Assembly (NCBI RefSeq): GCF_024159265.1
Contig: NZ_JAMYWY010000001.1
Span: 5,642,001 to 5,706,000 of the forward strand
DNA from: Paenibacillus sp. 1781tsa1
GTDB taxonomy: Bacteria > Bacillota > Bacilli > Paenibacillales > Paenibacillaceae
Direction of reading: 5' to 3'
Length of the DNA: 64,000 nt
How positions within the stretch are numbered: the stretch's first letter is position 1; each line of letters starts with the position of its first letter. Made by a program: the position numbers and the translations under genes. A model generated the notes under the pieces. That model was given only the letters and a program-made list of their open reading frames with translations. It was not told where the DNA came from and did no database searches. Positions 106-13,092 of this stretch are shown here, piece after piece.

Positions 106-837
106 TTAGGGCAATTGTCCTTTCATGCGGACAGCTGCTTCCTGGAGCGAATCAAATGTACCTGCATCACTCCAGTATTTCTGCAAAATATCGTATTCCA
201 GTCCGCCAGCAGACGCGTAGTGATTATTCACATCCGTAATTTCAAGTTCTCCGCGCGCAGACGGCGAGATATTGCGAATCAGGTTAAATACATGATCATC
301 ATACATGTATATTCCCGTCACACAATAAGAGGTTTTTGGCTGGCTTGGCTTCTCCTCAATGTACGAGATTCGCTCTGGATGCTTGGGATCAAATACCGGC
401 ACCCCGTAACGTCGTGCATCATCCACCTCTTTGAGCAGAACTCGTGCTGTACCCGCAGGTTGCTGCATGTAGCGGTCCACATAAGGCTTCAGGTCGTCGC
501 TGAAGAGATTATCCCCGAGAAGCACAACAAATCTTTCGCCGGGAAGAATAAAGGAGGTGGCCAGATCCAATGCTTCCGCAATCCCGCCTGCCTTTTCCTG
601 AATGCGATACGTCAACTTGACCCCATGATCCGCTCCGCCACCAAGATACTCTGTATACAGACCGGCGGAATGTTTGTTAATTACAATCAATAGTTCATCA
701 ATGCCTGCCTGGCGGAGCCTGTCGATGCCATACATAATCATCGGATGTTTACCGACTGGAAGCAGATGTTTGTTAATGAGCCGGGTCAGCGGATACAGTC
801 TAGTTCCTGTTCCGCCGGCAAGAATTACACCTTTCAT
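106..837 (-). CDS. Short RmlA/SpsI-type sugar-1-phosphate nucleotidyltransferase
   Basis: This 243-residue protein probably makes a nucleotide sugar, dTDP-glucose by family precedent, from glucose 1-phosphate and dTTP in the cytoplasm. It opens with MKGVILAGGTGTRL, the nucleotide-binding loop of the family. The sugar-site segment EKAGGIAEAL is near residue 81, LLGDNLF with the metal-binding Asp near residue 105, and EKP near residue 161. Classical RmlA has about 290 residues, so this is the shorter form, as in Bacillus SpsI of the spore coat polysaccharide operon. Its ATG overlaps the upstream glycosyltransferase stop by 4 bp (ATGA at 834-837), so the two are translationally coupled. The exact sugar is inferred; no rmlB, rmlC or rmlD gene is in view. 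Confidence 0.88.
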   Translation of the reverse strand: MKGVILAGGTGTRLYPLTRLINKHLLPVGKHPMIMYGIDRLRQAGIDELLIVINKHSAGLYTEYLGGGADHGVKLTYRIQEKAGGIAEALDLATSFILPGERFVVLLGDNLFSDDLKPYVDRYMQQPAGTARVLLKEVDDARRYGVPVFDPKHPERISYIEEKPSQPKTSYCVTGIYMYDDHVFNLIRNISPSARGELEITDVNNHYASAGGLEYDILQKYWSDAGTFDSLQEAAVRMKGQLP

Positions 838-1607
838 TCCACGTTCCCTCCTTCATCGGATATGTCCATATATTCAAGCGGATCGACATGCCATTTGTTC
901 ATAAAAATCGAACGATTACGCTCAAGCAGCTGTTTCCACGCTACCGGATCTGTCTTCTGGAAGCTGGCACTTCCCTGATGATGCACAAGAACATCTCCAC
1001 ATACCAGCAAGCGATATCCCTGCAATCTTGCTCTATAACAATAATCGTCATCCTCATAGTGTCCCGGAGAATATGCCTCGTCAAGCAGTCCAACCGATTC
1101 CACGACATCTCGTTTCATCAGCATGCACAGACCGACGATCCGGCGTACTTCCCTCCACCTTGAAGAATCCGCAACATTATTGGAATGGGCCAACTCCTGA
1201 AAATGTTCCATGTTCCGAAACGCCAGTTCAATCTGCTGGATGCCGCTTGCATAATTCGTAACAGGACCCGTGATCCCAATACTTGCGTCACTGTACAGAG
1301 CCGTTCGCAGGTTCTCCAGCCAACGGGGCGTGACCGTAACATCATTGTTCAACAGCAACAGCTCATCCCCGCAAGCTGCACGAAGTCCAGCGTTACACGC
1401 TGCCGGAAATCCACGATTGTCCGGGAACCTTACAAATCGAATTCGCTCCAACGCGCAATATTCAGCCGTTCCATCCGTCGAACCGTTATCTACAACGATA
1501 ATTTCATATGACGCAGGATCGCCCGAGTATTGACGTATGGCATCGATGCAGGGCCTAATCAGATCCAGACCGTTGTACGTTGGGATAATCATACTCGTCA
1601 GTGTCAT
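834..1607 (-). CDS. Family 2 glycosyltransferase, rhamnosyltransferase-like
   Basis: This 257-residue GT-A fold enzyme transfers a sugar from a nucleotide donor. The N-terminal strand SMIIPTYNG and VVDNGSTDGT bind the nucleotide. GFPAACNAG and LLLNND (near residue 100) form the second motif and the metal-binding region. EDDDYCYRARLQGY near residue 190 carries the likely catalytic base. This pattern is common in rhamnosyl- and other deoxysugar transferases, which fits the neighbouring nucleotidyltransferase. The start at 1607 is preferred over one 63 bp upstream because AGGAGG stands just before it and its ATGA overlaps the upstream stop. It is the third gene of a four-gene operon. Acceptor and donor are not known. 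Confidence 0.88.
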   Translation of the reverse strand: MTLTSMIIPTYNGLDLIRPCIDAIRQYSGDPASYEIIVVDNGSTDGTAEYCALERIRFVRFPDNRGFPAACNAGLRAACGDELLLLNNDVTVTPRWLENLRTALYSDASIGITGPVTNYASGIQQIELAFRNMEHFQELAHSNNVADSSRWREVRRIVGLCMLMKRDVVESVGLLDEAYSPGHYEDDDYCYRARLQGYRLLVCGDVLVHHQGSASFQKTDPVAWKQLLERNRSIFMNKWHVDPLEYMDISDEGGNVE

Positions 1608-2719
1608 CTGGCGTTCCTCCTGTAAGCCACTTCTGCACGGGAGAGTGTATGTGCCTGGGCTGGATTCCAACCCGTACCCAGCAATGTAGCCAGTGCCTCT
1701 AGATGATCACCGATGATCAATCTGGCGACATCATTCCCACTTCCCGTGTTACCAGGACGCAACCGATTGGAACGAATAACATCCACCTGACTTGGTGCAG
1801 ATACGCTCATTCCATGCTGAATAGCCAGGCTTTGTGCCTTAGGTGGAACGGCCAGTGACGCTGGCTTCACGGTCTGAATCATGCGACGAGACAATGCATG
1901 GGGCACGGCCGTCATGGAATTGGAACCGAGATCTGCCCGGCCTAATGTTCGGTTCAGATATGCCTTGATCCGGCTTACCTCATCCTGCCCTGCAAACGCA
2001 GGAAGCAAAGACGTCAGATTATTCAACGCTACATCCTGCCCTCGATCAACTGCGAACAGGAAGGGTGCAAGCTCTTCAGCCGAGACGACCATATCTCCAT
2101 CCACAAAAAGTACCGACTCCGCATCCGTCATCTTGGCTCCAAGTGCACGCCCGACATCATGTCCTGCCCGATCCGGTTCATAGACTACGGTAAGTCCAGG
2201 CTGCTTCAGTACCTGTTTCAAACTGTCATCTGTCGTTCCATTCAGTACGACAATGATATCCGTCAGAGGCAGCCGCTTTAGTTGCAATAACACCTGCCCC
2301 AGTGTGTGTTCCTCATTACAGGCACAGACAATGGCAGCAGCCGAATGACGAAGGGGTAGCGGCACAATCTGGAATGAATGTCCCGAGGCATGGGCATAAC
2401 CCTGCATAAATGCCTTACCTGCCTTCAGGGCTAGATCAAAGTTGCTTAGCTCCGTAACGTTCGCCGCGTGTACATTCCACACGAGACGTGCGTGTTTGTC
2501 TGATGCTGTGTTGTTCGCCTTCGCCTCGTTTCCTGCAACTTGCCCCGCTTTCCACATCAAGTGCAGATCCACTTGGCCCGAAGTTGATCGGCTTCTTCTT
2601 GTTTTTTGAATAGCTACATGCTTCTTGTTCCCATGACGCTTGTTAATGACTGTTCTTCCCGCTGTCGTTCGTCTAGTTGTTGTCCGCCTGCGGCGGGCAA
2701 TTCCTGAACGTCCCTTCAT
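1604..2719 (-). CDS. Family 2 glycosyltransferase with Arg-rich N-terminal tail (paralogue b)
   Basis: This 371-residue protein has two parts. Residues 1 to about 65 form a strongly basic, probably disordered tail rich in Arg, Thr and Lys (RRRRTTTRRTT). After a poorly conserved stretch, a GT-A fold begins near residue 115 with AAIVCACNEE, followed by VLNGTTDDS, GHDVGRALGA and FVDGDMV, where DGD replaces the usual DxD. It is clearly paralogous to the gene at 2761-3717: both share the order NGSTD/NGTTD, GHD.GR..GA, D.D and PHA.SR. The start at 2719 has GGAGGTGA seven bases upstream; an ATG at 2758 is the alternative. The role of the basic tail is unknown. The acceptor may be a spore-surface or cell-wall glycan (inference). 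Confidence 0.82.
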   Translation of the reverse strand: MKGRSGIARRRRTTTRRTTAGRTVINKRHGNKKHVAIQKTRRSRSTSGQVDLHLMWKAGQVAGNEAKANNTASDKHARLVWNVHAANVTELSNFDLALKAGKAFMQGYAHASGHSFQIVPLPLRHSAAAIVCACNEEHTLGQVLLQLKRLPLTDIIVVLNGTTDDSLKQVLKQPGLTVVYEPDRAGHDVGRALGAKMTDAESVLFVDGDMVVSAEELAPFLFAVDRGQDVALNNLTSLLPAFAGQDEVSRIKAYLNRTLGRADLGSNSMTAVPHALSRRMIQTVKPASLAVPPKAQSLAIQHGMSVSAPSQVDVIRSNRLRPGNTGSGNDVARLIIGDHLEALATLLGTGWNPAQAHTLSRAEVAYRRNAR

Positions 2720-2760
2720 TTCCTCACCTCCAGCATGCTGCATCATCTGATGCGACATGC

Positions 2761-3717
2761 TTACCTCGCCAGGTTGCGAACACGTTTCAGATCAGTATAA
2801 CCTCCGCGGGGACCGAGCGTATCCGTAATCCATTTGATCGCTGCCATATGATCATTCAGCACCACTTGACTTAACGGATCAGGTCCGCTTCGCTTCTTGA
2901 TTCGTACTGCATTCATTCTACCCACGGGTACGTGATGAACTGCGCGTACCCGAAGTCCGCCGATCACTGCCTTGGCTTGTGCGAGTGGCGGAACTTCCAG
3001 TGAGAATATTCCCATGACCTCAAGTCCTTTTCGGCTTATTGCATGTGGAATAGCTGTCATGGATGCCCCACGGAGATCGGATCTTCCAAGTATGCTATTC
3101 AACATGTGTTTGGCCTCCACTACCGGATGAACAGGATGATGAGTGACCGGCCCATGGTAGTCGTTAAGCGCCACATCGGTTCCCTTCAGCACTGCCTTCA
3201 CATAAGGTGCCAGGTGCTCTGCAGGAATTGCGATATCTGCATCAGTAAAAAGCAATACCTGACCACAGGCCGCCTCTGCGCCTACTTTTCTTCCTCCATC
3301 ATGCCCTAGCGCTTCTGCATACGTAAGCACTCGTGCTCCAGCCCGTTTGGCTGCATTAGCCGTACCGTCTGTTGAACCATTCACAATGACAAGCACTTCA
3401 GCATCACGGCATATCCGCAGCGCTTCACGTACAACTGCGCCAATCGTTTTCTCCTCATTCATAGCAGGGATAATCACCGAGAGCAGCGGACGCTGAGAAT
3501 CATCCCTTTGTGCAAGAGCATCACTCATGCCATTTTCCGCTCCATTCTCTACTCCATCCTTAGCCTGTGACATCAGCTTTCTGGATGGAATAACGAACGT
3601 ATAGGCCTTTGTACCCTTTTTGTGTCCAGACTTCCATCTTCGTTTCTTCAGCACTGTTTTTCTGCGTGTCACATTTGAGCGGGTTGCATAACGTGCTGTG
3701 GTACGGGTTTTGCGCAA
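2761..3717 (-). CDS. Family 2 glycosyltransferase with basic N-terminal tail (paralogue a)
   Basis: This 318-residue protein is the first gene of the glycosyltransferase operon. A Lys/Arg-rich tail of about 40 residues (RRKTVLKKRRWKS) is followed by an acidic linker. A GT-A domain then starts with LSVIIPAMNEE near residue 80, with VIVNGSTDGT, GHDGGRKVGA and LFTDADI as donor and metal motifs. It resembles UDP-sugar:polyprenol or polysaccharide-type GT2 enzymes; no transmembrane segment is evident. The proposed start is a TTG at 3717 preceded by GGGAGGTGA; an ATG at 3735 has no good ribosome site. Tandem duplication probably produced it and the gene at 1604-2719. Confidence 0.82.
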   Translation of the reverse strand: MRKTRTTARYATRSNVTRRKTVLKKRRWKSGHKKGTKAYTFVIPSRKLMSQAKDGVENGAENGMSDALAQRDDSQRPLLSVIIPAMNEEKTIGAVVREALRICRDAEVLVIVNGSTDGTANAAKRAGARVLTYAEALGHDGGRKVGAEAACGQVLLFTDADIAIPAEHLAPYVKAVLKGTDVALNDYHGPVTHHPVHPVVEAKHMLNSILGRSDLRGASMTAIPHAISRKGLEVMGIFSLEVPPLAQAKAVIGGLRVRAVHHVPVGRMNAVRIKKRSGPDPLSQVVLNDHMAAIKWITDTLGPRGGYTDLKRVRNLAR

Positions 3718-6051
<2,334 letters not shown>

Positions 6052-6223: not shown

Positions 6224-9200
6224 CTATCCTTGTGAAGGTCCCGCAGCAATCCATGATAACAACCCGTACGTATGTTTGCAATCTGCCGTACGCGACACCT
6301 CAAGTACTGCTTCGTCCTCACTTTGCGAGAGCAGGGAGATCTGGAATCCCCGATCATTGCTCATGCCAACAATTACATAATGTTCTGAAGCAAATGACTC
6401 TTCAAAAACAACGGTTACCTCTGTGCTTACTTCACTCTCTGGCAGTACAAAAGCTTCCATTCCGAATTGTTGTACAACCGGTTGCTTGCTTACGCTGCGA
6501 ACGGGTTGGAAGGCCAGATGTTTGGCCTGAACTGCACCCGATTGCAACTGGCTGCTGCCCACGGCATCATTACACAGATGCTCTTGTGTAATCGATTGTT
6601 CACTTAACATAAACTCCGTAGTTCCAGCAATCTCCTGTGACCGTTCAAGCTGTGGTTGCTGAACCTGATCTTTCTGATCTTTCTGATCTGCCTGTTCTGC
6701 CTGCTCTGTCGTGAACAAAACTGCCGATGGTTCGCCAAGCTGATCTGTTTGGGATATCAGCTCTTGCTGTTCCTCCAGACCAGCGCTCGGTAATGCCTCA
6801 ACGATTGCCTGCTGTGGTTGCTGTACAACCTCATTTTCTGTTTGAAGCAATCCCTCTTGTCTTTTGATCGCTGCCAACTGCTCCAGCGTTTCTCCACTGA
6901 ACTGACGAATCGCATTCCATATCTCTTCGCTCAAATGCGCTGGACCTACAATCCCCGCATTCAAGTGGTTAGAGGTAATACTCTGCTCACTCAGTTTGCT
7001 GCCGTTCACGCTGCCATCGGCCAATTTGGAACTTGTGACGGACCCATTTTGCAGATGAACACCGCTTACTGCTTCCTCTTCCAGATGGGTTGTGCGAATA
7101 CTGCGTTCTTGAATATGATCAGCATGAATCGTTCCATCCTGAATATGCCGAGATTCCACACTTTTATCTGCAATGTGGATAGCCGATACCGCACCTTCAA
7201 GCAATTTATTACCGTTCACACTGCCATCCGCCATTTTGGCACTTGTTATGGAACCATTGTGCAGGTGAATCGCACTTACCGATTCCGCTTTGAGGTGAGA
7301 GATCCCAATGCTGCGCTCCTGAATATGGTCAGCCTGTATGGCTCTCTCCTGGATATGACGGGATTGCACACTTCCATTGGCAATATGGACATCCGACACC
7401 GCATCTTCAAGCAGTTTGCTGCTGCTCACACTGCCATCGGCCAGTTTTGCCCCCGTTACGGACCCATTTTGCAGATGAACAGCACTGACTGCTTCCTCTT
7501 CAAGATGGGTTGTGCCGATACTATGCTCCTGAATATGATCAGCAAGGATCGCGCCTGCCTGGATATGGCGAGTTTGCACACTTTCGGATGCGATATGGCT
7601 CCCCAGTACAGCATCTTCGAGCAATTTGCTGCCGGTTATGCTGCCGTCAGCCAATTTGGCACTTGTTACGGACCCGTTTTGCAGATGAACCGCACTTACT
7701 GCTTCCTCTTCCAGATGGGTTGTGCCGATGCTTCGCTCCTGAATATGATCAGCATGAATGGCTCCTGCCTGAATATGCACGGATTCCACGCTTTCCGATG
7801 CGATATGAATCCCCGATACCGTACCTTCAAGTAACTTGCTGCCCGTTATACTGCCGTCCGCCAGTTTGGCACTCGTTACAGATCCATTTTGCAAATGAAT
7901 AGCACTTACCGCTTCCTCTTCCAAATGTGCTGTGCCAATACTCCGCTCTTGAATATGATCAGCATGAATGGCTCCTGCCTGAATCTGACGGGATTGCACA
8001 CTATCGTCTGCCATGTGGATATCCGATACCGCTCCTTCAAGCAACTTGCTGCCCGTTACACTGCCGTCGGCCAACTTGGTACTTGTTACAGATCCATTTT
8101 GCAGATGAATGGCACTTACCGCTTCTTCTTCCAAGTGAAGCATGCCGATGCTGTGCTCCTGAATATGGTCAGCCAGGATCGCTCCTTCCTGGATATGGCG
8201 GGATTGCACACTTTCGGATGCGATATGGATTCCCGACACCGCATCTTCGAGCAACTTGCTGCCGGTTACACTGCTGTCGGCCAGTTTGGCACTGATGACG
8301 GACCCATTTTGCAGATGAATGGCACTTACTGCTTCCTCTTCCAGATGGGTTGTGCCGATGCTGCGCTCCTGAATATGGTCAGCATGAATGGCATCTGCTT
8401 GAATATGCGCGGATTCCACGCTTTCGGATGCAATATGAATCCCCGATACCGTACCTTCGAGTAACTTGCTGCCGTTTATACTGCCGTCCGCCAGTTTGGC
8501 ACTCGTTACAGATCCATTTTGCAAATGAACCGTACTTACAGACTCCTCATCCAGATGAATTGAGCCAATACTGTACTCTTGAATATGATCAGCCAGGATC
8601 GCTCCTTCTTGGATATGACGGGTTTGCACACTTTCGTTGGCAATGTGAGTAGCCGATACTGCACCTGCGGCTAATTTGCTGCCATCAACACTAGCACTTG
8701 CTAGTTTGGATCGGGTTACAGATTCATCCTGCAAAATAATCGTACTTACCGCTTCTTCTTCCAGATGAGATGTTCCGATGCTGCGTTCATGGATATGATG
8801 AGGCAGAATTTCACCATCTTGAATATGACGGGAATGTACGGCTCCTTGCTGCAGGTGAACAGCACTTGTTGACTCTGCCTGAAGATGCAAACCACTGATC
8901 AAACCTGGCTGAAGATGCGCCGCTGTAATGGATAAAGGGGCCAGATGGTCTGTTTCCACAGATCCAGGTGCCAAGTGATGGGATGTGACCACCTGTTCAG
9001 CAATATGCTCCTCATGAATGATGTCTGCCTTCAGATGCTGGGAGCCTACAACTTGAGTTCCCAAATGGTCAGATTTCACGCTGCCTTCAGCCAGATGCAC
9101 GGATTGTACAACGGATGGCTGCAAGTGCTCGCTACCTACAGCAGCCTGTTGCAGTTCTGTTCCGGATACCGAGTCTGCTGTCAAATGGTCCGCATTTATG

Positions 9201-11446
9201 GAGCCATGCCGAAGTTTGTTGCCCGTAATACTGCCATCAGCGAAAAGTTCCGGTGAGCGTATTTCTTCTGACAAATGTTCCAGGGAAACGGCATGCTGCT
9301 TCAGGTGATATCCGCGAATCGTTCCTGCTGGAATATGTTTGGCGTTAATACTTTCTGCCATAATTTTGGAAGAAGTCACACTCCCGTCTGCCAGTTTAGC
9401 CGACGTAACAGCAAAATCTGCCAGTTTATCTGTGGCAACACTCTCTGGCGAGAGCTTAGGGGAGGTAACTGCATGATCTGTTAGATGAGGCGGAAAAATG
9501 GACCCACCAGCCAGCTGGGCTGAAGTTATACTACCAGGAGCCAATTTGTCTGTTGTGACTGCCGCCCGTGCAATAGCATCCGTTTCAACACTGCCTGGTT
9601 GAAGATGAGGTGCCCCTACGGCATGTTCCGTCAGGTGATCTGATTTCACTGCATAAGGTCTCAGGGCCTCGGAACCCACACTCCCTGGAGCCAGATGTGT
9701 GCCTGTGACTCCACCACTTGCAAGATGTGAGGATATGACACTTCCCGGGGCAAGCGCCCTGCTATTAACCGATGCCGTTCCAAGCTTTTCTGTTGTCACA
9801 CTTCCATCCGCGAGCTTAACGTCTGTAACCGCAGCATCCTGCAATTCATACGTACCTACGGCGGACTCTGCAAGATGCCGCTCACTCACCACGCCATCTG
9901 CAAGAGCATCTCCGGACACACTTCCGGTAGATAGATGAGTTGCCTCGATGCTTCCACTTGCAATGTGAATGGAGTGAATTGCGGAATTATCCACATGTAC
10001 TGGCGTGATTCCCCGATTTGCAATGTGTTCCGCACGAATGGACCCTTTGGCAAGATGTTTACCCTGCACGGATTCATCCGCAATTTTGGAAGAAATGACA
10101 CTTTGATCCGCGATCTTGGAGGCCGTAATGGACTGCTCCAGCAACTTTGCTGTTCCAACAGACTGGTCTGCCAGTTTGCTGCTCGTTACTGCACCTTCCG
10201 TCAAATGTTCACTGCCCACTTCTCCATTGCCAATCTGATCCTTGCCAACGGAATGAGCGCGAATCTGGCTTGAACCGATTGAACCATCCAGTAGATGTCT
10301 TCCACTTAGTGAACCCTCAGCTAGATGTCTTGTTTGTATGGACCCATCCTCTATCTGGTCACTTCCAATACTTCCATTTAATAGTTGTGAACGACCGACA
10401 GATCCTTCTGCCAGATGTGTCTGTTTAACAGCACCTGCTTGGATATGTTGAGACTCGATGGACAGTTCTTCGATTTTGCTGCCTGTGACAGCAGACTCAC
10501 GAATTTTGGATGTAGTCACTGCATCGTCAGCCAGCTTGGAGGTATTCACAGCTCCTCCCGTGAGATGCCTTGTATCCACGCCGCTAATCGCGATTTTGTC
10601 TCCAGTCACGGCATGATTTTTGATTAATTCTTCCGTTACCAGCATGCGGCTGAGATGTCTTGTGCCGATGGAACCATCGGCAATTTTGGTCGAATCGATG
10701 ACCTGGTTGCCAAGCTTCTGAGAAGTAATACTGCCATCTCTGATTTTCTCACCGGCAATAGAAGCATTTCGTATTTTTTGTCCAGACACAGAGCCGTCAA
10801 TCAGGTGCTCCTCAGATACCGACGCTTCGGCAAGTTTCGCCGAAACAATGGCCCCGTCTGCAATGTGAATGCTGGTCACTGCATAATCCTGCAACGCTTC
10901 ACTGCCGACCGCATCCGGTTTCAGCTTCGAGGCATCCACAGAGAAAGGAGCCAGTTTGCTCTCCGTAACAGCAAATTCACTCAAGTCATCCGTGTAGATG
11001 TAATGTCCAGTATGACCCGGCATTTGGTTCTGGTTCAGGATCTCAAGCCGATCCTTGCTTGTTATCTCCTGCTTGTTGATGTCCTGCTCTTCTACCAGAG
11101 CAGGTGGAGCCACGCTGCTAACTTGAATCTGCTTTTCCAAGCTATCTTGTGTCTCTACTTCCTTGCGATCAGACTCTACAGGTTCCGGCTTGATTTTGGA
11201 TGTGATCTCCAGCTCTTCCAGCTCGTTCGTTGTAGCAGGTAGTTCCGTTGATTCGTATAGGAATTCTTCCGATTCCTGAACAGCCTTTGAATCCCTTTTA
11301 TTCGTATTCAAGCGTTCTTCCCTATTCATAGTGAAACCTGAATTCATCTTGTCTGCCCGGCGATCAGTCAGTTCCAATTCCTTGTATTTCGGGCTCACAT
11401 GCCGCAGTTTCGGCGTTGGAACCTTCTTTTTGCCATTTTTACTCAT
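6224..11446 (-). CDS. Giant decapeptide-repeat protein with WIAG-like C-terminal tail
   Basis: This 1740-residue protein has no recognised enzymatic domain. Residues 1 to about 145 are charged and low in complexity (start MSKNGKKKVPTPK). From about 150 to 1505 runs an almost unbroken series of about 135 decapeptides of the form G-S/A-V/I-x-x-x-K/H-L/I-x-x, for example GSVTSAKLAD and EAVSAIHLQN. A Glu/Gln-rich linker with QKDQKDQVQQ follows, then a few more repeats, and a compact C-terminal domain ending in GLLSWIAAGP. It resembles proteins named WIAG-tail domain proteins in Paenibacillus (from memory, not checked). The regular repeat suggests a beta-solenoid or fibre; similar AVT.AKL repeats occur in phage tail fibres. 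There is no signal peptide. GGAAGGAG precedes the ATG. A spore or cell surface filament is plausible given the neighbouring glycosyltransferases and YheC-like gene, but unproven. Confidence 0.85.
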   Translation of the reverse strand: MSKNGKKKVPTPKLRHVSPKYKELELTDRRADKMNSGFTMNREERLNTNKRDSKAVQESEEFLYESTELPATTNELEELEITSKIKPEPVESDRKEVETQDSLEKQIQVSSVAPPALVEEQDINKQEITSKDRLEILNQNQMPGHTGHYIYTDDLSEFAVTESKLAPFSVDASKLKPDAVGSEALQDYAVTSIHIADGAIVSAKLAEASVSEEHLIDGSVSGQKIRNASIAGEKIRDGSITSQKLGNQVIDSTKIADGSIGTRHLSRMLVTEELIKNHAVTGDKIAISGVDTRHLTGGAVNTSKLADDAVTTSKIRESAVTGSKIEELSIESQHIQAGAVKQTHLAEGSVGRSQLLNGSIGSDQIEDGSIQTRHLAEGSLSGRHLLDGSIGSSQIRAHSVGKDQIGNGEVGSEHLTEGAVTSSKLADQSVGTAKLLEQSITASKIADQSVISSKIADESVQGKHLAKGSIRAEHIANRGITPVHVDNSAIHSIHIASGSIEATHLSTGSVSGDALADGVVSERHLAESAVGTYELQDAAVTDVKLADGSVTTEKLGTASVNSRALAPGSVISSHLASGGVTGTHLAPGSVGSEALRPYAVKSDHLTEHAVGAPHLQPGSVETDAIARAAVTTDKLAPGSITSAQLAGGSIFPPHLTDHAVTSPKLSPESVATDKLADFAVTSAKLADGSVTSSKIMAESINAKHIPAGTIRGYHLKQHAVSLEHLSEEIRSPELFADGSITGNKLRHGSINADHLTADSVSGTELQQAAVGSEHLQPSVVQSVHLAEGSVKSDHLGTQVVGSQHLKADIIHEEHIAEQVVTSHHLAPGSVETDHLAPLSITAAHLQPGLISGLHLQAESTSAVHLQQGAVHSRHIQDGEILPHHIHERSIGTSHLEEEAVSTIILQDESVTRSKLASASVDGSKLAAGAVSATHIANESVQTRHIQEGAILADHIQEYSIGSIHLDEESVSTVHLQNGSVTSAKLADGSINGSKLLEGTVSGIHIASESVESAHIQADAIHADHIQERSIGTTHLEEEAVSAIHLQNGSVISAKLADSSVTGSKLLEDAVSGIHIASESVQSRHIQEGAILADHIQEHSIGMLHLEEEAVSAIHLQNGSVTSTKLADGSVTGSKLLEGAVSDIHMADDSVQSRQIQAGAIHADHIQERSIGTAHLEEEAVSAIHLQNGSVTSAKLADGSITGSKLLEGTVSGIHIASESVESVHIQAGAIHADHIQERSIGTTHLEEEAVSAVHLQNGSVTSAKLADGSITGSKLLEDAVLGSHIASESVQTRHIQAGAILADHIQEHSIGTTHLEEEAVSAVHLQNGSVTGAKLADGSVSSSKLLEDAVSDVHIANGSVQSRHIQERAIQADHIQERSIGISHLKAESVSAIHLHNGSITSAKMADGSVNGNKLLEGAVSAIHIADKSVESRHIQDGTIHADHIQERSIRTTHLEEEAVSGVHLQNGSVTSSKLADGSVNGSKLSEQSITSNHLNAGIVGPAHLSEEIWNAIRQFSGETLEQLAAIKRQEGLLQTENEVVQQPQQAIVEALPSAGLEEQQELISQTDQLGEPSAVLFTTEQAEQADQKDQKDQVQQPQLERSQEIAGTTEFMLSEQSITQEHLCNDAVGSSQLQSGAVQAKHLAFQPVRSVSKQPVVQQFGMEAFVLPESEVSTEVTVVFEESFASEHYVIVGMSNDRGFQISLLSQSEDEAVLEVSRTADCKHTYGLLSWIAAGPSQG
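6990..8790 (-). repeat. 210-bp tandem super-repeats within the decapeptide gene
   Basis: The same landmark (GACCCATTTT or close variant) recurs at 7041, 7251, 7461, 7671, 7881, 8091, 8301, 8511 and, degraded, 8721, a spacing of exactly 210 bp. Each unit encodes seven decapeptides. Units differ mostly at synonymous or conservative positions, which indicates recent amplification of a 70-residue block on top of the older 30-bp repeat. Confidence 0.93.
8790..11000 (-). repeat. Diverged 30-bp coding repeats
   Basis: Upstream of the 210-bp array the coding sequence keeps a 30-bp (ten-codon) rhythm with alternating KL and HL positions, but neighbouring units are more diverged and show no clear higher-order period. 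It represents the older part of the repeat domain. Confidence 0.8.
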
Positions 11447-11964
11447 GCAGCTTGCTCCTTCCTCTAACGTTCGTCTCCGGCATCATATGCTTCCATATGG
11501 GCATCTGCCACTTCATTTCTGACTTTTGCGGAAGCCAAAGCAACAATGTATAGGCATCAAGACAGGAAGGTTTGATGATCTTCGTGGAAATAGGCGTGTC
11601 AGGATGGTAGAGGAAAGGCGGCTGTCCACGCCCCCGTCCCAGTCATGTCATAGAATATTATGTCTATGTCGTGTCTGAGAACTCGCTGAAGAAGTACATC
11701 TTTCACCGTCTTTTCACCCCCTGCTGCGTCACTTTCCCTTGATGTGCTCCGGCACGCCTGCGGAAAACTTCCTTGCTTGGAACGAAAATTCGGTAAAACC
11801 TGCTTCCTTCGGAGTTTTCAGACATGACCTGAGCTAACGCTCGTGCATAGCGATGCACTTACACACCGGTCTGGGTTATCGCGATGTCTGAGCCATGCGG
11901 TGACAGGCCGGCATTCCATGAATGGACGATCCATGGTCGCGATAACATCGAAGGAGGAACGGTC
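11447..11964. other. Divergent intergenic region upstream of the repeat protein and the YheC-like gene
   Basis: This 518-bp stretch has no credible ORF. It must contain the promoters of both divergent genes. On the minus strand CATAATATT (from AATATTATG near 11649-11657) resembles the CATAnnnTA -10 element of mother-cell sigma K with one mismatch, but no clear -35 AC spacing could be confirmed. A loose stem pairs GGAAAACT near 11762 with AGTTTTC near 11813. Nothing else is recognised. Confidence 0.35.
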
Positions 11965-13092
11965 ATGCTCCAAGAAACGATCGGCATTATGTTCGATTCA
12001 CGCATGTACCGGGGGATACCGGCCGGAAGGACCGGTCAGGAATCACTCGCGAATTATGAACAGGCAGCAGCCAGTTATGGATTAACCCCCTGCTTTTTGC
12101 GGCTGGAAGATATTGATTCCGATCAAAAAACATGTCTTGCCTATGTAAAAAAAGAAGGCAGATATGTTCGCGAGCGCATGCTATTGCCCTCCGTCATTCA
12201 TAACCGATCACTCCAGCTTCGCCGGACGGAACAGCATCAGATTACCAAGCTGATGTTGCAGGGTATCCAGGTATTCAACGTTCGCAACCGGTACCGTAAA
12301 GATCACATTCATGACATGCTTCATCAGGACCTCGCCTTGCGAGAACACCTGCCCCATGCAGTTAAAGCTACGCCAGAATCTCTGGCCTATATGATGGAAC
12401 ATTATGATGACCTGGTCATCAAACCGTGCAGCGGCAGCATCGGTCATGGGATTATGCGAGTCTTTGAGCGAGATGGACAGTGGAAACTAACCTGTGAGAC
12501 GAAGGCTGCACGCAAAGGATGGGCAACCTTCCGACTGAGCAAAGGACAGCTTCCTTCCTCCACCCTAAGGCGGATCTTTCGTTATGCCTACCTCATTGAA
12601 GAGCGTATCCCACTGGTTCGTTATGAGGGCAGACCGGTCGATCTGCGGGTATCCGTACAGCGTGGCAGCGATGGTTTGTGGGGAATTACGGGCATGTTTG
12701 CCAAAGCGGCTCCTGCTCATACGTTTGTCACCAATATCGCCCAGGGTGGTAAAGTCATGAAGCTCGAGGAGGCCCTTGGATTAGAATCCAGCTTCGACCT
12801 GGCTCGACTGGAATACAGAATCGGATTCGTAGCACTCCGAATTGCCCAGGTATTAGCGGCCAGTCTTCCACATCTGGCTGATCTGGGCCTTGATCTCGGG
12901 ATAACGCGCAGCGGTCAGATCTATTTTATTGAATGCAATGGACGTGATCAGCGTTACGGATTTCGCAAGGCGGGAATGTCGGAACACTGGAAGACAACGT
13001 ACAGCAAACCCATGGCTTATGGGCGTCTGCTGCTGGAACAGAATTCGAGAATTCCGAGACAACCGCAGACATACGATAGGAGATCATATTGA
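11965..13092 (+). CDS. YheC/YheD family ATP-grasp protein, endospore coat associated
   Basis: This 375-residue protein resembles Bacillus YheC and YheD, spore-coat-associated proteins with an ATP-grasp domain. The N-terminal part (IGIMFDSRMYRG, ERMLLPSVIHNR) is typical of the family. The ATP-grasp core shows DLVIKPCSGSIGHGIM near residue 155, YLIEERIPLVRYEGRPVDLR near 210-230 and a C-terminal metal-binding segment DLGLDLG..GQIYFIECNGRD near 310-330. The start at 11965 follows AAGGAGG by eight bases, which rejects an in-frame ATG at 11884. ATP-grasp enzymes join a carboxylate to an amine or thiol, but no substrate is known for this family. Its position opposite the giant repeat protein supports a spore-surface role (inference). 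Confidence 0.85.
   Translation: MLQETIGIMFDSRMYRGIPAGRTGQESLANYEQAAASYGLTPCFLRLEDIDSDQKTCLAYVKKEGRYVRERMLLPSVIHNRSLQLRRTEQHQITKLMLQGIQVFNVRNRYRKDHIHDMLHQDLALREHLPHAVKATPESLAYMMEHYDDLVIKPCSGSIGHGIMRVFERDGQWKLTCETKAARKGWATFRLSKGQLPSSTLRRIFRYAYLIEERIPLVRYEGRPVDLRVSVQRGSDGLWGITGMFAKAAPAHTFVTNIAQGGKVMKLEEALGLESSFDLARLEYRIGFVALRIAQVLAASLPHLADLGLDLGITRSGQIYFIECNGRDQRYGFRKAGMSEHWKTTYSKPMAYGRLLLEQNSRIPRQPQTYDRRSY

Follow-up and report, generated by a model that had tools for sequence, protein, structure and literature searches.

On the reverse strand of the window, as we call the 64,000-nucleotide stretch of Paenibacillus sp. 1781tsa1 DNA analysed here, lies a complete open reading frame for a protein of 1740 residues. 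A Pfam profile search with the full-length protein returned no match, whereas the NCBIfam model of the WIAG-tail domain (NF012201) scored 93.2 bits over residues 1658–1736, against a curated cut-off of 33, which places the protein in the WIAG-tail family. The gene, its parts and its recurrent neighbours are as follows.

106–837, reverse strand: RmlA-like sugar-1-phosphate nucleotidyltransferase gene, the most recurrent neighbour (PF00483, E 2e-57)
834–3735, reverse strand: three GT2 glycosyltransferase genes (2761–3735, 1604–2758 and 834–1670), recurrent neighbours (PF00535)
6224–11446, reverse strand: WIAG-tail family protein, complete open reading frame of 1740 residues, ATG start, no internal stop (NF012201, E 7.7e-27)
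6239–6475, reverse strand: WIAG-tail domain, residues 1658–1736, predicted six-stranded beta-sandwich (NF012201, AlphaFold2, Foldseek)
6503–6622, reverse strand: three to four extra decapeptides, residues 1609–1648, leading into the C-terminal domain (register search)
6623–6919, reverse strand: Gln/Glu-rich linker, residues 1510–1608, its length varying between species in any step size
6890–8779, reverse strand: nine 70-residue (210-bp) super-repeats, residues 890–1519, the last one eroded (Tandem Repeats Finder, block comparison)
6920–10999, reverse strand: shaft of 136 uninterrupted decapeptides, residues 150–1509 (register search; phrog_892)
11000–11365, reverse strand: low-complexity acidic linker, residues 28–149
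11366–11446, reverse strand: basic N-terminal leader with the family motif ...SPKYKELELTD, residues 1–27, candidate anchor
11455–11460, reverse strand: ribosome-binding site AAGGAG (from the sequence)
11481–11509, reverse strand: sigma-K-type promoter GGCA-N15-GCATATGATG, 35–63 nt upstream of the ATG, conserved in the genus, with a motif enriched upstream of homologues
11884–13092, forward strand: divergent YheC/D-type ATP-grasp gene, a recurrent neighbour (PF14398, E 2.1e-56)

The protein is an ordinary member of its family, with which it shares both the C-terminal domain and a long decapeptide array, and it is the only WIAG-tail copy in its genome. Among 121 relatives, 106 carry the domain, mostly in one copy and within an open reading frame of 1000–2600 residues, and a sample of 300 phylum-level genomes contained no member outside Bacilli. 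The family takes its name from the domain and is apparently uncharacterised, the sole paper retrieved by a literature search for the name being an unrelated algal-virus annotation. What is new relative to that name is a tail-fibre fold, a sigma-K-type promoter and a link to the spore.

The bulk of the protein is repetitive. A dynamic-programming search of all 1740 residues for the repeat register gave the consensus [VI]-T/S-S/T/G-x-[HK]-[LI]-x-[ED]-G-[SA]. An earlier reading of the window, made from the sequence alone (the sequence-only reading), had described about 135 decapeptides forming one uninterrupted domain; we count 136, spanning residues 150–1509 with not a single register break, and a further three to four decapeptides stand outside the main array just ahead of the C-terminal domain (residues 1609 or 1619 to 1648). 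That reading had also seen nine 70-residue blocks spaced at exactly 210 bp, and nine copies of a marker unit, I(G/R)xxHL(E/D/K)(E/A)E(A/S), do recur 70 residues apart over residues 890–1459. Tandem Repeats Finder independently reported positions 6996–8666 as 8.0 copies of period 210 (78% matches, score 1733). DNA identity between the blocks averages 0.72, with the ninth block eroded (0.48–0.59), and since unrelated decapeptides of the same array reach just 0.40, this order lies far beyond chance.

The array retains its 10-residue register from one homologue to the next, while its size ranges from 67 to about 190 units, in odd as well as even counts, and homologues within the genus measure 1321–2272 residues. 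Comparing relatives that are at least 75% identical, we found 121 indels in the array, every one of them a multiple of 10 residues and 32 of these also a multiple of 70; outside the array, multiples of 10 account for 10 of 229 indels. The expectation that repeat number should vary is thus borne out between species, and in strict 10-residue steps. This quantisation argues that the decapeptide is a unit kept intact by selection, and that the shaft changes its length stepwise by recombination between repeats.

The array resembles the shafts of phage tail fibres. The PHROG family phrog_892, "tail fiber protein", matches a 280-residue shaft block with an E-value of 2.2e-47 and the whole protein with 4.2e-208, the latter score being inflated by repetition, and phrog_28766 is matched as well, so that the shaft is of the tail-fibre repeat type. 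In tblastn searches it found annotated tail fibres of Terrisporobacter phage TVCOM_ph1 (E 9e-20), cyanophage S-TIP37 and Arthrobacter phage Mimi, whose repeats show the same consensus (for example VTTAKLADxA). A PDB sequence search with the shaft returned weak matches of the repeat type, namely IcmE/DotG, a cyanophage fibre, orf16 and designed pentapeptide proteins. As for its structure, the AlphaFold monomer model of the 280-residue block is free of strands, and most of its decapeptides form a short helical turn. Its confidence is modest (pLDDT 75.5, pTM 0.36), and Foldseek found no fold match for it in the PDB. The model therefore lends no support to a beta-solenoid, which the sequence-only reading had suggested alongside a trimeric fibre; disorder across the repeats, an outcome which that reading had named as fatal to its proposal, is not predicted for this block either.

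For the C-terminal end we modelled the last 136 residues with AlphaFold2, using an alignment with 49 family members. The model is a six-stranded sandwich with pLDDT values mostly of 91–98 over its residues 51–130. In a Foldseek search of the PDB its best match was the foot of the R1 pyocin tail fibre (6cxb, E 1.7e-3, probability 1.00), followed by the phage LKA1 tailspike gp49, SLL-2 and Helix pomatia agglutinin, also at probability 1.00; the E-values of these top matches are only about 2e-3 to 1e-2. Against predicted viral structures, the best matches were H-type lectin and tail-fibre proteins, with E-values from 7.5e-6. At the level of sequence, 15 of the 49 family members match the Pfam profile Gp53-like_C, a tail-fibre C-terminus, at a lax E-value limit of 10 (best 7e-6), and in two homologues examined the match exceeds the Pfam cut-off (26.9 versus 24.9 bits), whereas the window protein has no match above it. 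With the H-type lectins (Helix pomatia agglutinin, SLL-2) the domain has its fold in common, at Foldseek probability 1.00 and a TMt of about 0.6. Yet a match to the Pfam H_lectin profile (PF09458) occurs in only one of the 49 homologues (E 0.008), and the window protein has none. Neither a PDB sequence search with the domain nor a tblastn search of phages returned a match, so a phage relative at the sequence level is lacking.

The solved relatives of this fold, tail-fibre feet and H-type lectins, are trimers, and on their analogy the WIAG-tail protein may form a homotrimer. The C-terminal domain had been proposed to serve as either anchor or trimerisation unit; its predicted fold agrees with the second role, and the model makes it the likelier trimerising or binding tip, while for anchoring the conserved basic N-terminus is the likelier candidate. 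The N-termini of 37 homologues carry a mean charge of +6.1 over residues 1–25 and a recurrent xELxxLD/E motif, and a hydrophobic stretch is present in none of them. On these grounds a signal peptide is absent, as had been stated for the window protein, throughout the 37 homologues.

Compared with phage and pyocin tail fibres (R1 and R2 pyocin, LKA1 gp49, the cyanophage and Terrisporobacter fibres; phrog_892; Gp53-like_C), the protein thus combines a shaft of ten-residue repeats of the same consensus with a C-terminal six-stranded sandwich of the same fold, the N-terminus being the attachment end in this analogy. The shaft match is no proof of common descent, since short repeats can converge; convergence becomes less likely, however, because shaft and foot follow each other in the same order as in tail fibres. 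Unlike the phage fibres, the WIAG-tail protein is encoded by a cellular gene without phage neighbours, its basic leader takes the place of the baseplate-binding domain, and its array is longer than in the fibres we looked at, unbroken, and rich in histidine at repeat position 5.

The lack of a signal peptide had been described as fitting assembly onto a spore by the mother cell. The sporulation protein SpoIVA is present in all 121 close relatives, including the 15 without a WIAG-tail gene, and was therefore undiscriminating at this level; the same 15 genomes indicate that the gene is dispensable for sporulation. We turned to a class-level sample of 400 Bacilli genomes, in which SpoIVA occurs in 269 (265 over the cut-off) and the WIAG-tail domain in 110. 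All 110 WIAG-positive genomes have SpoIVA and no SpoIVA-negative genome has a WIAG-tail protein (lists compared by eye; here, as in the promoter counts below, genomes and loci are phylogenetically non-independent). Five genomes of one sister genus within the same family, of 5.2–5.7 Mb, lack both SpoIVA and the WIAG-tail domain. This genus (g28; G164, G349, G366, G410 and G452) offers a natural loss-of-sporulation control.

In the sigma-K motif as published, the -10 element is 10 nt long and the gap to the -35 measures 14–16 nt, with 15 as the optimum (PMC517825). Upstream of the window gene we found -35 and -10 elements at a spacing within this range: GGCA-N15-GCATATGATG sits inside a block conserved in the genus, its -35 element being weak (GGCA versus the consensus AC). 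We then compared the upstream regions of 35 homologues with those of 478 control open reading frames from the same loci. The -10 pattern GCATAnnnTR occurs in 17 of 35 homologues and 18 of 478 controls (p 4e-13), and in combination with a C[AC] -35 element at a fixed N15 in 14 of 35 versus 2 of 478 (p 3e-16); both p-values are optimistic, as the strict pattern was fixed after the conserved block had been seen. Loose sigma-K scoring over 200 bp separated the two sets weakly, with 64.7% of homologues and 34.9% of controls at a score of at least 10 (p 7e-4), so that the strict test was the decisive one. A sigma-E pattern was present in none of the 35 homologue regions.

The neighbouring genes point in a similar direction. 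In 41 clustered neighbourhoods, the RmlA-like nucleotidyltransferase recurs in 22, YheC/D-type ATP-grasps in 19, GT2 glycosyltransferases in 17, GT4-type glycosyltransferases in 12 and epimerases in 9. Runs of YheC/D genes point into the locus directly before the array gene in four distant loci (L099, L100, L101 and L105), and CotS-like kinases lie directly upstream of it in two; the nearer of these has TIGR02906 as its best family, at 113–122 bits and thus under the cut-off of 172.7. The yheC and yheD genes of B. subtilis are under sigma-E control, with SpoIIID stimulating them (PMC517825). Together, the co-occurrence with SpoIVA, the YheC/D and CotS-like neighbours and the sigma-K-type promoter lend the proposed spore link indirect support. 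A literature search on the protein found no report on spores and no localisation, expression or mass-spectrometry data.

Several features of these neighbourhoods deserve mention in their own right. The GT2 glycosyltransferases (window positions 1604–3735, and L032 upstream of the window) have unusual, long, basic, low-complexity N-terminal extensions that resemble the basic leader of the WIAG-tail protein and may share a targeting signal with it. An ACATA(G/A)AATA block, in the window within positions 3736–3860, is conserved upstream of a GT2 gene in five loci and begins 31–77 nt before the start codon; its resemblance to a sigma-K -10 element, accompanied by a weak -35, hints that the GT2 and fibre genes are expressed together. 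Between the fibre gene and the glycosyltransferases, on the opposite strand, lies the gene of a secreted thermolysin-type M4 protease (4471–6051), an arrangement confined to five loci of this species group. In one Bacilli family, a small protein of 126–186 residues with an N-terminal PGVFxGSY/F (L092–L094, L107; cluster 17) is encoded beside a GT4 gene near the fibre gene; the one such protein searched matched no Pfam or NCBIfam family.

Based on the fold, the shaft similarity, the quantised indels, the distribution, the promoter motif and the neighbours, we consider it probable that the gene encodes a mother-cell-made fibre of the spore surface whose architecture follows that of phage tail fibres. 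We infer the localisation, trimerisation, polarity, glycosylation and ligand binding of such a fibre as follows. Synthesis would take place in the mother cell at a late stage of sporulation. Three chains probably join through the C-terminal domain resembling H-type lectins and tail-fibre feet, and would zip up into a long shaft with one decapeptide as its structural step. While still in the mother cell, the shaft probably receives glycans on its serines and threonines from the enzymes that the adjacent sugar-nucleotide and GT2/GT4 genes encode. Attachment to the coat or exosporium would probably be the task of the basic leader; the foot domain would then form the outer end and could bind sugars or other surface ligands. 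Recombination between repeats would alter the length of the shaft in whole 10-residue steps, and often in whole 70-residue blocks.

The most serious alternative retains the mother-cell origin and places the protein inside the spore, as a scaffold of the coat or interspace whose shaft would act as a molecular ruler or glue, either inside a layer or from one layer to another. The YheC/D and CotS-like neighbours are coat-associated, and acidic coat proteins or nucleic acid are conceivable partners of the basic leader. We nevertheless hold such a scaffold to be unlikely: the lectin-type foot and the cluster of glycosyltransferase genes suit a surface glycoprotein better, and the free variation in length between species (1321–2272 residues in the genus) would be intolerable in a ruler. 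Improbable, too, is a monomeric solenoid akin to the pentapeptide-repeat proteins, that is, a right-handed quadrilateral beta-helix. Hydrophobic residues do recur every five residues, and there are weak matches to HetL, PipB2 and designed pentapeptide proteins. However, the HetL match reaches 62.9 bits against a cut-off of 260, the array contains not one A(D/N)LXX unit, the protein has no Pfam pentapeptide match, and AlphaFold2 predicts no strands; moreover, tolerance of both odd and even decapeptide counts is unexpected for a coil of 20 residues.

Less probable still are two readings that dispense with the spore. As a vegetative surface adhesin, or as a glycoprotein associated with biofilm or the S-layer, the protein would fit its glycosyltransferase neighbours and its lectin-type domain; against this, none of the homologues examined has a signal peptide or a hydrophobic N-terminal anchor, the gene is absent from all non-sporulating Bacilli sampled, and its promoter is of the sigma-K type, which makes this reading very improbable. 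The resemblance of both shaft and foot to tail-fibre parts could also mean that the gene belongs to a prophage, a tailocin or a phage-derived injection system. This is largely refuted, and the least probable of the readings considered: no phage structural genes were recognised nearby in the window, the genes around it having roles in metabolism or glycosylation or being of the coat type, the protein is the only one of the phrog_892 type in its genome, and it is conserved, with a sigma-K-type promoter, across many Bacilli families.

In its proposed role, the spore-surface fibre would be comparable to the BclA-type collagen-like filaments of the exosporium, which are likewise trimeric glycoproteins made in the mother cell, with a repeat shaft of variable length and a globular C-terminal head, and for which length polymorphism is known (PMC11952670). 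In contrast to BclA, the WIAG-tail protein has no Gly-X-Y collagen (its longest G..G.. run covers 6 residues, and Pfam collagen is unmatched) and no recognisable C1q-like head. Spore fibres of a different kind, the F-ENA and S-ENA endospore appendages, are known from Bacilli including Paenibacillus (PMC11952670). An ENA fibre is assembled from many small subunits (DUF4183 in F-ENA), whereas in a WIAG-tail fibre one giant chain would be the fibre; between Ena2A and the C-terminal domain Foldseek gave a weak match (E 0.06, TM 0.32). Brevibacillus laterosporus CpbA and CpbB, which we considered as possible relatives, are excluded by their size (fusion bands of 54 and 42 kDa, GST included).

Our results thus point to a class of spore bristles that is widespread and, to date, uncharacterised. 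If the proposal is correct, roughly one in four of the 400 sampled Bacilli genomes would encode a giant glycoprotein of the tail-fibre type under sigma-K control, giving a single-gene answer for the outer spore surface in many Bacilli families outside the B. cereus group. Cells would then use the tail-fibre plan of repeat shaft and lectin-type foot for a spore bristle, in the part played elsewhere by the collagen-like BclA. The fibre would also be of use as a display scaffold, adjustable in length by exact steps of 10 residues, and would make spore adhesion in agriculturally used Paenibacillus accessible to testing.

The composition of the shaft at repeat position 5 sets the family apart from phage fibres. 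Family-wide, this position is histidine in 49% and lysine in 35% of units, hence one of the two in about 84%; histidine ranges from 21 to 86% per homologue (38 homologues) and reaches 71% in the longest run of the window protein, as opposed to 0–3% in five phages whose fibres share the consensus. The array in the window (6920–10999) contains 97 histidines, mostly at this position. If the shaft is trimeric, each repeat would carry a ring of three histidines, which could bind metal ions or shift the stiffness or stickiness of the fibre with pH. It is tempting, if rather doubtful, to go further and propose that spores of Bacilli carry non-collagen bristles, derived from tail fibres or convergent with them, whose shaft has been re-tuned into a histidine ladder.

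Finally, the WIAG-tail domain also occurs nearly without a shaft: about 14 Paenibacillus genomes encode a second WIAG-tail protein of roughly 280 residues. In genome G046, this short protein (L039, 281 residues) occupies the YheC/D-Psd locus used elsewhere by the long gene, and the long copy (L038) has other neighbours.
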